64,000 nt of DNA from Methanomassiliicoccales archaeon (GTDB lineage: Archaea > Thermoplasmatota > Thermoplasmata > Methanomassiliicoccales > UBA472): the NCBI GenBank assembly GCA_013415865.1, contig CP058896.1, forward strand, positions 1,593,957 through 1,657,956. Reading direction: 5' to 3'. The notes below the pieces were generated by a model. That model saw only the letters and a program-made list of their open reading frames with translations, ran no database searches and had not been told where the DNA came from. The first letter of the stretch is position 1, and every line of letters begins with the position of its first letter. This document shows, piece by piece, positions 23,488 to 35,832 of the stretch. A program made the position numbers and the translations under genes.

Positions 23488-24333
23488 TTACGCCTCGAGC
23501 GAAGAGACCATCTCTTTGAAGTCATCAAACTTCTTTTGAAGGATCTCCAGCCCCTTCAAAAGGGTGTCCTTTGCGCTCAATGAGCCATCGGTCTCGAACT
23601 CGAAGATGAACTTCGTTGGATCGCCAACTACCTTTATAGCGCCTGTCTTGCAGACATCTGGATTGACGCAGGCCATGCATAATATGCATGCTTTCTCATC
23701 GACCACCTTGACCTTGTCACCCTCTTTCGCAAAGACATGCTTTGGGCAAACGGGTATGCATCTTCCACCGTCATCACACTTTGAAGGGTCTATCTTCACA
23801 GTAGGGAGATATTTGTACCCAACACCACTGGTGACCTGCCATTTGGCATGCTTTTTTCCCGTGCCTAGCTCTGCAAAGGCATAGACAAGGATCGCCTGCC
23901 CCTCGCCAAGTCTGACGATCGGTATCATATCGTCCTTTACGCGCACAGAGGAGTCGCCTTCAGTCAACGGAAGCAGGTCGCCAGAATATACATCGCAAGG
24001 TCCGGTCTTGAAGAGAGAGTAACCGATCATGCAAGAGGGGCAACCCTCTCCACCACATTCGCATTTGTCCCTCTCCTTCATAGAAAGGTCCGTCGGGATC
24101 GGGACCAGTCCGAGGCGATGGGCGACTATCTCATCGAACAAAGGAGAGACCGACTCGTACTCCCTGCCCTCAGCGTCCTTTATGGGACCAAGATGGAACT
24201 CGACTACATCTATGGCCATTTTAGGTATTTCCGACAGTAACACCCTCCTCAGGGCGTTCACAACCTCTGGGCTCGAGTTCACGACCTTGAACTTCGCCGA
24301 GGTCTCCGTCATCTCTAAGATTTCGATGTCCAT
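23488..24333 (-). CDS. rpoD: RNA polymerase subunit D (Rpb3-like) with ferredoxin-like domain
   Basis: Subunit D with subunit L forms the assembly platform of archaeal RNA polymerase. The alpha-like part has VNALRRVLLSEIP (residues 25-37) and the GLVPIPTD segment. An inserted domain near residues 180-240 carries two cysteine clusters, CDDGGRCIPVCP and CILCMACVNPDVC, as expected for bound iron-sulfur clusters; several archaeal D subunits have one or two. The ATG at 24333 gives 281 residues and starts with the usual MDIEILE strand, ten bases after S11. It ends the S13-S4-S11-rpoD run; in many archaea L18e, L13 and S9 follow, but here the operon stops. Confidence 0.95.
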   Translation of the reverse strand: MDIEILEMTETSAKFKVVNSSPEVVNALRRVLLSEIPKMAIDVVEFHLGPIKDAEGREYESVSPLFDEIVAHRLGLVPIPTDLSMKERDKCECGGEGCPSCMIGYSLFKTGPCDVYSGDLLPLTEGDSSVRVKDDMIPIVRLGEGQAILVYAFAELGTGKKHAKWQVTSGVGYKYLPTVKIDPSKCDDGGRCIPVCPKHVFAKEGDKVKVVDEKACILCMACVNPDVCKTGAIKVVGDPTKFIFEFETDGSLSAKDTLLKGLEILQKKFDDFKEMVSSLEA

Positions 24334-24343
24334 GGAAGGCGCC

Positions 24344-24727
24344 TCAGACTCTCCTTCCCCTTCTCCCGCCCTTTTTCTTGGTTCCATCGTGCGGGATCGG
24401 GGTAACGTCCTCTATCCTACCGATCTTCATCCCTGCGCGGGCGAGCCCTCGGATCGCAGCCTGGGCACCGGGTCCTGGCGAGGCGGACTTGTTCCCACCT
24501 GGTGCGCGGACCTTGATGTGTATGCTGTCGATACCCTTCTCCTTCGCGATCTCGGCGACCTTCTCGGCAGCACGCATCGCAGCATATGGAGAGGACTCGT
24601 CCTTGGCCTGCTTCACGACCATCCCACCGGTCGCTTTTGTGATCGTCTCGGCGCCGGTAATGTCGGTCAATGTGATGATTATGTTGTTATAGCTTGCGAA
24701 AATGTTCGCTATGCCCCATTTGCTCAT
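24344..24727 (-). CDS. rps11: 30S ribosomal protein S11 (uS11)
   Basis: uS11 sits on the platform of the small subunit. The 127-residue product has [14 protein letters not shown], the [17 protein letters not shown] stretch, and the C-terminal [24 protein letters not shown] tail, all diagnostic. The ATG overlaps the S4 stop by one base (TAATG), indicating coupled translation. Confidence 0.97.
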
Positions 24728-25434
24728 TACTGTCCCTCCTCGGGCAGGTCGACCGGGATGTTCGCATCGGCCGGGTTCGTGTCAACGATCGCCTTTGGGA
24801 CCTTCTTCACGAACTTCTTTGCGGCCTTCAGTCCACCGCGCTGGTCTTCCCTTTCTTTCCTTGCCTGATAGGCTGCTTCCTTTTTTGCCCTTGCCTCGAG
24901 GGCACCCTTCTGAGCGATCCGGATCGGATGCATCTCATCTGCCACAGGGGACAGCGGGTTCAGAGCTATGTTATCCTCCTCTCCCCTGGTCACAATGTAT
25001 CCTGGGATGGTGACCTTACGTCCATTGATGGTGACATGGCCATGTACTATGAACTGTCTTGCCTGTCCCATGGAGCATGCAAAACCTTTGCGGAACACGA
25101 TCGTCTGTAGGCGCCTGCCCAACATGGCCTCGGCCTGAAGACCAAGGACATCATCCAGTGTAGCGCCCTCCATAGGTAACAGACCGATCCTGGCGCAGCT
25201 CTTCAGAAGGTTCTCCTTTTCTATTTTGGCCTGTTCCTCCCCGGTCCTGATCCTGGCCTGGAGGTCCCTTGATTGCTTCCTCAGGTTCCTGACCATGGTC
25301 TTGGCCTTCCATAGCTCATGCTTGTTTTTCAGACCGTACTGCTTGACGATCTCGGCCTCTTCCTTGATACGCTCTCCCTGCCATGGATGGGAGGGGGTGT
25401 TGAACGATCTTCGTGGGAATTTTGGGTCGCCCAT
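24727..25434 (-). CDS. rps4: 30S ribosomal protein S4 (uS4) with a C-terminal extension
   Basis: uS4 is a primary 16S-binding protein. The archaeal form starts [18 protein letters not shown] as here, and the S4 RNA-binding domain (about residues 107-155, [30 protein letters not shown]) is intact. At 235 residues it is about 50 longer than many archaeal S4 proteins. The extra C-terminal part is rich in lysine, alanine and glutamate and looks disordered. It follows S13 by ten bases and overlaps S11. Confidence 0.96.
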
Positions 25435-25444
25435 TCATACCACC

Positions 25445-26041
25445 TTATTTCTTCTCCTCGGCCGGCTTGGATGCCGCCTGGGCCGCCTTCTGTCTCATTA
25501 CACCGAGCGTCAGGCCGGTCCTTCCATTGGACCTCGTCCTCTGACCACGCACCTTTTGACCGGTCTCATGGCGGACGCCCTTGTAAGAACGGATCATCTT
25601 CATACGGTTGATGTCATCCTTACGCATGACCTCCAGGTCCACCCCGACCAAATGCGCATCGGCACCGGTCTCGAAATCGTTCTGCCTGTTCACCGCCCAG
25701 GTGGGAACATACTCAGCATACGTGTTGATGAGCTTCTCCATCTCCTCGATCTTGGTGTCAGGGAGGGAGCCGATCTTTGCGGTGCGGTCCACATTGGCCT
25801 TCTTGATGACAATATCCGCGACCCTCATGCCGACCCCCTTGACGCCCTGGATGGCGATGAAAACAGGCTTGGTCCCATCCAGATCGCTGTTGACCATACG
25901 GACGATGTATTTGAAGTCCTTACCATAATCGACCTTTGCAGGGGCCTTCTGCGTGGCCTCTTTAGCCGCCTTCTCTTTCTTTTCAGCCTTCTCCTTCGGC
26001 TGCTTCTCTTCCTTGGGTTCCTTAACTTCCTTCTCCGCCAA
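25445..26041 (-). CDS. rps13: 30S ribosomal protein S13 (uS13) with a charged N-terminal extension
   Basis: uS13 is a head protein that contacts the P-site tRNA and L5. The core (from about residue 45) has the archaeal S13 pattern: FKYIVRMVNSDLDGTKPV, the GVKGVGMRVAD helix-hairpin-helix region, SYKGVRHETG and GQRTRSNGR. About 45 residues before it are almost only K, E, A, P and Q. The start is the TTG at 26041, preceded by CGGAGTGAT, a very good Shine-Dalgarno; an upstream in-frame ATG at 26164 would lie inside leader hairpins and is rejected. A leader of about 170 bases with several hairpins precedes it. Confidence 0.95.
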   Translation of the reverse strand: MAEKEVKEPKEEKQPKEKAEKKEKAAKEATQKAPAKVDYGKDFKYIVRMVNSDLDGTKPVFIAIQGVKGVGMRVADIVIKKANVDRTAKIGSLPDTKIEEMEKLINTYAEYVPTWAVNRQNDFETGADAHLVGVDLEVMRKDDINRMKMIRSYKGVRHETGQKVRGQRTRSNGRTGLTLGVMRQKAAQAASKPAEEKK

Positions 26042-26060
26042 GTGTATCACTCCGATACTA

Positions 26061-26135
26061 TCAAACCCTGAACTTGCCCAGGATTCCCTTTTTGGAGTGC
26101 TCAGCACGCTCAAGCGCGTGTTCCGCAGTTCCCAT
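26061..26135 (-). CDS. Possible 24-residue micro-ORF in the S13 leader
   Basis: An ATG frame inside the S13 leader reads MGTAEHALERAEHSKKGIL then GKFRV and stops 20 bases before the S13 TTG. The amphipathic, protein-like composition is unusual for chance. It overlaps the third and fourth leader hairpins and has no clear Shine-Dalgarno. It could be a tiny gene, a regulatory uORF or coincidence. Confidence 0.25.
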   Translation of the reverse strand: MGTAEHALERAEHSKKGILGKFRV

Positions 26136-26205
26136 CTCTGGATAGGGGCCAGTCCGGGAACCATTCGCCCTAAGGGTCGAACGCTCCGAGCGACCTTGGT
26201 CGCTC
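26105..26205 (-). promoter_or_regulatory. Structured 5' leader of the S13 operon (four consecutive hairpins)
   Basis: Read on the minus strand, the leader folds into H1 GAGCGAC/GTCGCTC with loop CAAG (26188-26205), H2 TTCG-A-CCC/GGG-CGAA with loop TTA (26164-26181), H3 GTTCCC/GGGAAC enclosing CTGG/CCAG (26128-26161), and H4 CGCGC/GCGTG with loop TTGA (26105-26118). The order and perfect arms suggest a functional RNA. It could be a site for autoregulation by a ribosomal protein (S4 or S13 in the operon) or a separate small RNA. Confidence 0.55.
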
Positions 26206-26231
26206 AGTCTTTGGTAAGGCAAATTATATTC

Positions 26232-26241
26232 TATATTTAAA
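26232..26241 (-). promoter_or_regulatory. TATA box of the S13-S4-S11-rpoD operon
   Basis: TTTAAATATA on the minus strand matches the consensus and predicts initiation near 26210-26213, just before the first leader hairpin. Confidence 0.65.
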
Positions 26242-26581
26242 CGTTTGTCAGATCACCTGTAAAAGCCAGCATTAAGAAGGGGCATATATTGGAACCTTGC
26301 CACCTTGGCCCATGCGATACCTTTCTAAGTATTGTGCGACGGATGGTAGGGACTTGAATGAATGAACATGAAAGGTCTCAAGGTCACTTGCTGACATGCC
26401 TGCATCGACGCTCAGGAGATATTTGATCGTAGGGTCTCAGCCCTAAAATTCGACATCCATCAAGGACACCCGATGGTGACATTAACTGGATCATAGGATG
26501 ACCAATGGTATGTCTTAGCGAGGTGATATCCGACCCTTTCAATCTCAGGTCCTGAGAAGGGTCCTCTCACATCCAGACATT
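26242..26581. other. Gap between alaS and the S13 promoter, nothing seen
   Basis: About 340 bases with no credible frame, no tRNA and no clear repeat. It lies downstream of alaS and upstream of the S13 promoter, both on the minus strand. Confidence 0.5.
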
Positions 26582-29260
26582 TCAAGGTCTGCACATGGTC
26601 GCTAAGATCTCTGGTACCTTTGAGAACGCCTCTGGAATCTTTGATGGGTCTCCTCCACCTCCTTGGGCGAACTCCTTCTTGCCTCCGCCCCCTCCCCCTA
26701 TGATCGACATCACTTCTTTCAATAGGAGCTTGCAATCGATGTCGACGTCATGGGACCTCGAAACAAGTACCTTGGGGCTCGTTCCAGGTATACCGATGAC
26801 CGATACAACCTTTGGTTCCGTCGACAGCAACCTGGACATCTCTTCAGCATTCTCACCTTCCTCTGAAAGATGTACCACGATCCTGATGTCACCCATCTTC
26901 CTTGCGGACCCGAGAAGGGACCTAACTTTTACCTCAGCAAAAGCCTGGCTGAAAGATTCCAACCGTTTCCTTTGTTCCCTGTTCTCAAGGATGAGCCTCT
27001 CCGTTGCGTCACCGACATCTTCCAATGGGACATTCAACTTTTCAGAGAGAGTTTCGAGCATGGACTTGTCCCTTTGCATCTCCGCCACCGCTGCCATTCC
27101 CGCGGTGTATTCCACACGAACGATCCCGTCCTGGATGCGCTTGGTCCTCCGTATCCTGATAGGCCCTACATACCCAGTGTGTGGGCAATGGATGCCACCA
27201 CAGGCCTCAGCGTCGAACCCCTCGATGTCAACGACCCTGATGATCTTACCCGGCACCGCACCGCCTTGATATAACCTGTAGCCGTGGATACGCTCCGCCT
27301 CATCTCTCTGCATGAATGTGATGTTCACTTTAATGTCCTCGAGGACGACCCTGTTGCACTCACGTTCAAGCCGGTCCCTTTGCTGGGGAGAGAGGTTCTC
27401 ATAATGCGTGATGTCAAGTCGGGCCTCGTCGACCGCCTTGTGCGCCCCTGCCTGCCAGACATGATTTCCGAAAAGCCTTCTGGCACAACCGTTTATTATG
27501 TGCGCGGCCGTGTGGTGTCTCATGAGCTGTACCCTTCTCTCACGGTCCAGCCTTCCATGTACAATCTCACCGACCTTCGGGAGCGGTCCATCGAGGTAAT
27601 GAAGAATGCAGGTCTTCACCTTGATGACCTTTGTGACCTTGCGACCAGCGAGAAGACCAAGGTCCCACTCCTGACCTCCCCCCTCCGGGTAAAAGGCTGT
27701 CTGGTCGAGTGCGACAGCGCCGTTCACCACAGCCACCACCTTGGCATCGAACTCTGAGATCTCCGGGTCCTCATAATACAACATCCTAGTCTCTGGGAGG
27801 TCATCAGGGAACTTTTCTTTGTCCTCTGCCACGACCTCAGGCCTCTCGTGTCGTTTGGCAACCTCCATGTAGAAGTGGTCAGGTACATCTACAAGATCAG
27901 GAGCGTATTCCTTGACTATCTCTGGATTTAGGCCATGAGAGTCATAAAGGTCGATCAACCGGTCCAATGAGAGCTTCTCACCCTTCTTCAGGTCCTTTGT
28001 GAGCTTGGTGACAAGCTGCTTTCCCCTTGACAACGTCTCGAAATATCTCTGCTCCTCGACGTTCACCAGGTTAAGAATATCCTCACGATTGTCCTTCAGT
28101 TCCGGGACAACGCCCAAGAAGTAGTCGATCTGCTTGTCGACGACCTCTGAGAGCCTGATATCGACGCCTAGGTTCCTGAGGGACCTTAGAGCGCGTCTCA
28201 CCAGCATCCTGGCAAAATAACCCTCCCTGACATTGGACGGCACAACACCGTCGTTCAAGAGGAGCATCAATGCCCTTGAGTGGTCGCAGATGACGTAAAT
28301 ATCCTCAAGCGGGGCCACGATCTTCATCAGTTCCTCATAGCTTATTCCGATCCTCTCAGCGGTAAGCTCTCGGAGCTTCCTAACATCGGCCGCTGTCTTC
28401 ATGTTCATCGCACCAGCGATCTTGCTGTACTCGGTGAGGACCTTTTCATCCACAGAGACCCCGCACAGGTCCTTCAGATATTGGACAACAGGACCGAACA
28501 CAGCCTCATAGGCCGAGGTCTTCCCCTGCGACACCCAACAGATCCTTTCAAGACCGTAGCCTGTATCTACCACGGTCATGTCCATCATCTTTCTTCCCTC
28601 AGGCGTCTCCCTATACATCATGAAGACCAGCGTAGCGACCTCGACCCCTTCGAGGATGACCTCGACGCATGGCCCCGAGTTGCCACCGCCCTCCCACCAT
28701 TCCTCGACATATCGGAGCTTTGTACCCTCTATGCCCAACTTTTCCGTAAAGAACCTGTGGCATAGCTCAACGGTCCTGTCCTTGAAATATATCTCCTTAC
28801 CAGGTTTATTGAATGCGTGGTGCGCCAGCATCTCGAAGAAAGTAAAATGCCTTCCTGTCTTACCGACATTGTCTATATCGTTGAAACGCACACAGGTCTG
28901 AGAAATGGTGAGCGGGTTGGCTGGCGGGTCGATGACACCATTAAGGACCCATGGCTGAAAATCATAGATCGAAGCTTGGGTGAAGAAGACATCGTCCCTC
29001 CACCTGGCCACTATCGGATACCTTTTTACTCGACCGTGACCGTTCTGTTCGAAAAAGCTGAGATAAGCTTCTCTGGTCTCATGAAGGTCGAGCTTTTTTC
29101 TCACTGGCGAGTTACCGATGAAAGTGTACTCCTCGCACGGAGGTTCACCGCAGGTCGTCCAATCACCTAAGGTCCAATAGTACCTTTGACATTTGGGGCA
29201 CTGCCTACGATGGAAACCGTTTTCCAGGAAGAACTTTAATTGGAAGTCCGACTCCGCCAT
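26582..29260 (-). CDS. alaS: Alanyl-tRNA synthetase (archaeal type)
   Basis: AlaRS charges tRNA-Ala and edits mischarged serine and glycine. From the ATG at 29260 it has 892 residues. The archaeal N-terminal zinc element CPKCQRYYWTLGDW is near residue 20, class II catalytic motifs follow (about 60-270), and the editing domain shows HHTAAHIING and the CGGIHCPHTG motif. The glycine-rich IIGGGGGGKKEFAQGGG end is the C-Ala domain. An in-frame extension to 29317 does not fit the family start. It follows acetolactate synthase on the same strand by 57 bases. Its substrate tRNA-Ala(UGC) is at 9226. Confidence 0.96.
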   Translation of the reverse strand: MAESDFQLKFFLENGFHRRQCPKCQRYYWTLGDWTTCGEPPCEEYTFIGNSPVRKKLDLHETREAYLSFFEQNGHGRVKRYPIVARWRDDVFFTQASIYDFQPWVLNGVIDPPANPLTISQTCVRFNDIDNVGKTGRHFTFFEMLAHHAFNKPGKEIYFKDRTVELCHRFFTEKLGIEGTKLRYVEEWWEGGGNSGPCVEVILEGVEVATLVFMMYRETPEGRKMMDMTVVDTGYGLERICWVSQGKTSAYEAVFGPVVQYLKDLCGVSVDEKVLTEYSKIAGAMNMKTAADVRKLRELTAERIGISYEELMKIVAPLEDIYVICDHSRALMLLLNDGVVPSNVREGYFARMLVRRALRSLRNLGVDIRLSEVVDKQIDYFLGVVPELKDNREDILNLVNVEEQRYFETLSRGKQLVTKLTKDLKKGEKLSLDRLIDLYDSHGLNPEIVKEYAPDLVDVPDHFYMEVAKRHERPEVVAEDKEKFPDDLPETRMLYYEDPEISEFDAKVVAVVNGAVALDQTAFYPEGGGQEWDLGLLAGRKVTKVIKVKTCILHYLDGPLPKVGEIVHGRLDRERRVQLMRHHTAAHIINGCARRLFGNHVWQAGAHKAVDEARLDITHYENLSPQQRDRLERECNRVVLEDIKVNITFMQRDEAERIHGYRLYQGGAVPGKIIRVVDIEGFDAEACGGIHCPHTGYVGPIRIRRTKRIQDGIVRVEYTAGMAAVAEMQRDKSMLETLSEKLNVPLEDVGDATERLILENREQRKRLESFSQAFAEVKVRSLLGSARKMGDIRIVVHLSEEGENAEEMSRLLSTEPKVVSVIGIPGTSPKVLVSRSHDVDIDCKLLLKEVMSIIGGGGGGKKEFAQGGGGDPSKIPEAFSKVPEILATMCRP

Positions 29261-32853: not shown

Positions 32854-35832
<2,979 letters not shown>

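Follow-up and report, generated by a model that had tools for sequence, protein, structure and literature searches.

The window, by which we mean the whole 64,000-nucleotide stretch of DNA that was analyzed from a methane-producing archaeon, carries on its minus strand an operon in which the genes for ribosomal proteins uS13, uS4, and uS11 are followed by rpoD, the gene for RNA polymerase subunit D (Table 1). The genes were named with NCBIfam equivalog models, and the resulting S13-S4-S11-rpoD order is the one given in an initial annotation of this DNA. The rpoD ORF opens at position 24387, with the methionine at 24333 being the likelier start because it is clear of the uS11 end. The RpoD product (23491-24312, minus strand) includes a ferredoxin-like stretch at approximately residues 170-230 of the scanned piece, which ferredoxin-type models matched below their cut-offs. 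Upstream of the operon and on the same strand lies an alanyl-tRNA synthetase gene whose end is at 26582.

Table 1. Genes of the operon and elements of its leader, in window coordinates.
Feature	Position	Strand	Evidence or remark
uS13 gene	25445..26041	-	TTG start at 26041-26039; NCBIfam NF003140, 208.6 bits
uS4 gene	24727..25434	-	NCBIfam NF003139, 226.7 bits
uS11 gene	24344..24727	-	NCBIfam NF007176, 220.7 bits
rpoD (RNA polymerase subunit D)	23488..24333	-	NCBIfam NF001988, 274 bits on 23491-24312
Operon TATA box TTTAAATA	26234..26241	-	sequence read directly
P1 hairpin (CTGAGCGACC / GGTCGCTCGG)	26186..26207	-	compensated changes; paired in each of the five closest leaders
P2 hairpin	26162..26183	-	both-side changes in 8/9 pairs; 93.6% of cells paired; 15 sequences
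P3 hairpin	26128..26161	-	GUUCCC-[GGA]-CUGG-loop CCCCUAU-CCAG-[AGAU]-GGGAAC; most conserved part
P4 hairpin (CACGC-GCUUGA-GCGUG), closing UGC/GCA	26098..26127	-	both-side changes in 4/5 inner and 1/3 closing pairs
CACUCC strand, possible anti-Shine-Dalgarno	26094..26099	-	complementary to GGAGUG 26053-26048
AGGG, possible pseudoknot partner	26086..26089	-	would pair with P3 loop CCCU (26147-26144)
P5 hairpin	26064..26085	-	kept despite sequence change in the five closest leaders
Shine-Dalgarno GGAGTGAT	26046..26053	-	read directly; inside small hairpin GTATC/GATAC

Approximately 170 bases separate the TATA box from the uS13 TTG, and a TATA-like box occupies the equivalent place, 182-203 nt upstream of the TTG, in all 15 leaders of the class described below as type A. 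The usual archaeal spacing from the centre of a TATA box to the transcription start is ~22-27 nt. With this spacing applied, transcription would be predicted to start near 26215-26211, immediately upstream of P1, and the 5'-UTR position of the leader rests on the TATA box. The small hairpin around the Shine-Dalgarno sequence was seen only in L001 and L002 among the leaders inspected. The leader has a predicted folding energy of -74.5 kcal/mol, compared with -58.96 +/- 4.03 kcal/mol for 200 shuffled sequences (z -3.86), none of which was equally stable. P1, P2, P3, and P4 follow one another as consecutive hairpins, confirming the initial annotation's description of a TATA box and a leader of about 170 bases with four such hairpins before the S13 TTG, and a fifth hairpin, P5, lies further downstream. 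When the window sequence is folded alone, the minimum-energy structure pairs the P4 region otherwise than the comparative structure does, the latter being better supported for this region.

The leader is an evolutionarily conserved, covarying RNA structure. Conservation of its stems in relatives had been proposed as a check on the initial annotation, and in our alignment of 15 distinct leaders, which come from genera g1-g4 of a single Methanomassiliicoccales family, the window's own, the stems are indeed conserved. Counted over P2, P3, and P4 (27 pairs, 395 cells), 97.7% of the cells are paired, and 15 of the 27 pairs have changes on both sides, amounting to 42 such cells. Shuffled alignments gave 89.0% paired cells, 7.1 both-side pairs, and 12.8 both-side cells, with the observed values matched in 0 of 500 shuffles and the observed number of further pair types equalled in 84 of 500, counts that are not to be read as probabilities since the alignment rows are related. 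Sliding the partner strand by 1-3 columns, the fairer control, brought pairing down to 35-49%. RNAalifold, run unguided on the same alignment, returned the same helices, again with both-side changes in 15 of the 27 pairs. All five helices counted contain compensatory changes, most of the covariation being carried by P2 (8/9 pairs) and P4 (4/5), and P3 is largely invariant and holds little information on pairing. Both P3 helices have 100% of their cells paired, each with one both-side change, and the loop bases do not vary; the core alignment reads almost invariantly GUYCCC-GGA-CYGG-loop on one side and CCCUAU-CCRG-AGAU/G-GGGRAC on the other. P3 is presumed to be the protein-binding element.

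The outer hairpins were compared in L001-L005 only, with the arms picked by eye. Across these five closest leaders, P1 keeps 10/10, 9/9, 9/9, 8/8, and 7/8 of its pairs, the differences being compensated, and P5 keeps 7/7, 7/8, 9/9, 7/7, and 7/7. Genus g2 has other short hairpins at the P1 and P5 places.

From the 15 type A leaders, all drawn from directly upstream of S13, we built a covariance model of the core, R1. Within the window's family, 15 of the 22 genomes gave exactly one match each, and the seven genomes without a match belong to genera g5-g7. Among 147 genomes of the order, the same number matched (15/147), and a sample of 300 genomes from the class yielded 10 matching genomes, every one of them a member of the window's family; neither set of genomes contained a match outside that family. 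The R1-positive genomes are those that supplied the training sequences, and the search thus shows the restriction of type A rather than further members of it. S13 was present in all 12 of the R1 loci fetched (L141-L152), and no type A copy was found away from S13 in the family genomes or the 147 genomes of the order.

In the window scan against Rfam 15, the leader had no match at the gathering score, and when E values up to 10 were admitted for the region 25900-26600, nothing was returned except one 13-bit hit within the S13 gene. The E. coli alpha-operon leader, represented in Rfam as Alpha_RBS, is an S4-binding pseudoknot before S13. Type A shares with that leader a homologous operon, a position directly before the S13 start, and a presumed translational feedback, and a loop-to-downstream pseudoknot may form in type A too. 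However, type A is archaeal, differs in its helices and size, and has no Alpha_RBS match at E values up to 10. The initial annotation had suggested an E. coli-like device, and of this suggestion the conserved, covarying leader tied to the operon stands, whereas type A, with no Rfam match to Alpha_RBS, is not a relative of that leader. Because the leader is conserved, covarying, and tied to the operon, a regulatory leader analogous to that of the E. coli alpha operon is the best reading.

Type A also shows two of the features expected of ribosomal leaders (r-leaders), namely a structured RNA consistently located upstream of ribosomal-protein genes and a secondary structure supported by covariation. 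According to PMC7247131, S4 has been confirmed to bind leaders in Gammaproteobacteria and Firmicutes that are unrelated to each other, it probably binds four further motifs as well, and S4 leaders without common ancestry replace one another in bacteria. The Firmicutes rpsD leader and the S4 motifs of Fusobacteriales, Clostridia, Bacteroidia, and Flavobacteria given there are bacterial, but they are likewise lineage-specific, structurally unrelated, covarying, and located before S4-containing operons. The 16S-like GUAA that is conserved in S4 leaders from Firmicutes and Fusobacteria is found in one of the 15 type A leaders and is absent from the window leader. For archaea, PMC7247131 speaks of a handful of known or predicted cis-regulatory RNAs and adds four r-leaders, those for S15 (Halobacteria; Methanomicrobia), eL15 (Euryarchaeota), and L4 (Archaeoglobi). 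These too are predicted to act in cis on the strength of covariation, but they belong to other operons, lineages, and structures, and none is for S13/S4. Among the entries listed by searches of an open-access library, an archaeal S13/S4 leader was not found. As far as these searches reach, type A is a new class of ribosomal leader, itself a known kind of RNA.

We also compared the window leader with its own 16S rRNA. The longest words common to both are 8 bases long, and R1 scored the 16S locus at best 7.2 bits (E 0.33), both at noise level. Sequence mimicry of the S4 site on 16S was thus rejected, neither word sharing nor covariance-model scoring having risen above noise; a purely three-dimensional mimicry of that site by the leader is possible. 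A 10-base word is common to one g2 leader and 16S and is absent from the window's leader. As a separate observation on the rRNA genes, the 23S gene (window 32889-35816) lies ~47 kb from the 16S gene (G000:C1:1577978-1579445), making these genes unlinked.

We propose that the leader acts in cis as a ribosomal-protein leader RNA, belonging to a class absent from Rfam, through which a protein encoded in the operon would exert feedback, and we put the probability of this reading at roughly 0.7. Whenever ribosomal proteins outnumber the rRNA available to them, the operon-encoded protein would bind P4 and the invariant internal loop of P3 and would fix the part of the leader further downstream in a conformation that denies the 30S subunit access to the TTG, with S13 and the co-transcribed S4, S11, and RpoD then being made less. 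Provided that the RNA is an r-leader, we lean slightly, by analogy, toward uS4 as the most likely binder, a candidate favored as a primary 16S-binding protein and as the one proven to regulate such leaders in bacteria, with uS13 and uS11 as alternative candidates. The leader opens to direct testing whether archaea, whose ribosomal proteins resemble those of eukaryotes, share the feedback point of E. coli, and also whether the feedback extends to RNA polymerase subunit D.

Two candidate couplings to translation can be drawn. One would be a pseudoknot between CCCU of the P3 loop and AGGG, which is present in all 15 leaders at an offset of 8-9 from ACUYC, ~33 nt before the Shine-Dalgarno sequence; because AGGG never varies, this pairing draws no support from covariation. 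The other would have the ACUYC strand after P4 pair with the Shine-Dalgarno sequence or the first codons. In the window leader, the predicted CACUCC:GGAGUG duplex has an energy of -10.8 kcal/mol, a pairing possible in L001 and L002, and in most g2 leaders CUUCGC can pair with GCGAGG, which resembles group-level compensation with CACUCC:GGAGUG. In g2, the strand after P4 often pairs with S13 codons instead of the Shine-Dalgarno sequence. Other leader sites outscore the anti-Shine-Dalgarno strand in 8 of the 15 leaders, and unconstrained folds give more than one expected anti-Shine-Dalgarno pair in 2 of the 15. Occlusion of the Shine-Dalgarno sequence is therefore a possibility which the predicted folds do not consistently bear out.

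Several other explanations were weighed against this reading. It is conceivable, though we doubt it, that uS13 or uS11 rather than uS4 binds the leader, an arrangement with the same feedback that would be a variant of the preferred explanation rather than exclusive of it. S13 is the first gene and is always preceded by the RNA, and no feature that we found singles out S4. S13, however, joins 16S late and is not a known regulator of the S13-S4 operon. In PMC7247131, moreover, it is S4 that is confirmed as the ligand of the leaders in Gammaproteobacteria and Firmicutes. A riboswitch or another metabolite or ion sensor controlling ribosome synthesis would account for the nearly invariant P3 core (GGAC.GG..CCCUAUCC.GAGAU), which is like a ligand pocket, yet in the genomes searched (147 from the order, 300 from the class) the RNA occurs solely before the ribosomal-protein operon, and no Rfam riboswitch matched it, making such a sensor unlikely. 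We consider it improbable that the structures reflect incidental stability or proximity to the promoter with no regulatory role, given the compensatory changes in all five counted helices and the invariant single-stranded core.

The compact, strong fold with its own TATA box upstream would suit a stable small RNA, cut from the leader or co-transcribed with it and acting in trans, but its constant place before the S13 start, with the Shine-Dalgarno sequence just downstream, and the lack of any copy away from S13 in the genomes searched render this very unlikely. Least probable is a translated region, either as an S13 gene starting upstream (ATG 26164) or as a leader peptide beginning at the AUG of P3. 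No stop interrupts the S13 frame as far upstream as 26164, and in eight of ten g2 leaders the ORF from the P3 AUG ends beside the S13 start (at +5 in seven of them and at -5 in one). Nevertheless, base changes in the region follow the pairing, the S13 frame of L002 is stopped 24 nt before the TTG, the P3 AUG is absent in L004, the ORF from it stops after 10 codons in L003, and this ORF lies in three different frames relative to S13. The evidence from L002-L004 and from the frames led us to reject a leader peptide or upstream S13 start as a general explanation. As a detail not conserved beyond g2, the P3-AUG ORF ends in a TGA overlapping the S13 start (TTGGCTGA) in L027, L028, L029, L032, L041, L042, and L049.

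Different leaders are located at the same operon in sister lineages. Of 61 related genomes, 59 had an S13 hit and supplied upstream regions, and further upstream regions came from 80 named records, many of them titled Methanomassiliicoccales, Methanomassiliicoccaceae, or Methanomethylophilaceae. Removing 2 loci with a short upstream region and 27 duplicates from the 139 left 110, which were sorted by motif into 15 of type A, 41 of type B, 22 of type C, and 32 others, the last being assigned by inspection as six type B, seventeen type C, four type D, and five without a type.

Type B is a multibranched RNA directly upstream of S13 in Methanomethylophilaceae-type genomes (f2), with a closing stem, ACGUAAA/UUUACG, that adjoins the Shine-Dalgarno sequence. 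Its consensus, ACGUAAACUCAGGACCC...GAANACUGAGAGCGC...GCGCUUGAG...AACAUUUACGGAGG, is uncatalogued, and it occurs at L018, L023, L031 (for example L031:878-981), and 41 other loci. In an alignment of 44 distinct sequences, both-side changes affect 12 of 23 pairs, with 95.4% of the cells paired; the observed values were equalled in 0 of 500 shuffles, and slid structures paired at 27-44%. A type B covariance model, R2, matched 36 of the 300 class genomes, some of them in its training set, with one match each and all in f2. S13 was present in 42 of the 42 loci fetched for R1 and R2 together. Types A and B are thus alike in lying before S13, covarying, and occurring once per genome, with type B being multibranched. 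When R1 was run on 95 loci without type A, the best score was 18 bits (E 0.076) at L039, ~500 nt from S13 and judged to be chance, and R2, run on the window and 65 loci, found only three further type B loci and left the type A loci unmatched. A common origin of the two types was rejected, the models having given no cross-match. Words such as GCGCUUGA are common to types A and B when compared by eye only.

Type C, recognized by eye, is a short hairpin such as GTGTAGGGGAG..GCTCC soon after the TATA box, carried by families f5, f6, and f3, genera g5-g7, and more distant Thermoplasmata. It has a conserved GTGTAGGGGAGACGCTCC (in deeper relatives GTGTGGGGG..ATGCTCYCCAGAC), as in L017, L010, L006, L083, and others, and sits near the presumed transcription start, often with a second hairpin downstream. 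As such, it may be a 5'-terminal hairpin or, given its proximity to the TATA box, a promoter element. Four records (L072, L084, L088, and L090) have yet another leader upstream of S13, type D, with a CTTCTCTCAAAACGGCT...GTTTTGGTGCAG-like sequence.

The unrelated leaders of these sister lineages offer a natural series for asking how one protein comes to recognize different RNAs. Tentatively, and at somewhat less than even odds in our estimate, a single order may have swapped this operon's leader among three or more regulatory RNAs unrelated to each other (type A in genera g1-g4, type B in the Methanomethylophilaceae-type genomes, type C next to the TATA box elsewhere, and perhaps type D). On this view, one and the same protein would exert feedback through all of them, such that S4-type regulation would have been re-invented at the genus-to-family scale, and type A itself would operate as a pseudoknot that switches the ribosome-binding site. 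On an S13 tree of 147 columns, in which many forks are unresolved and 17 of the 39 type C rows were labeled by eye, the leader types cluster by lineage, with five changes among the four types as compared with 47 when the labels were shuffled.
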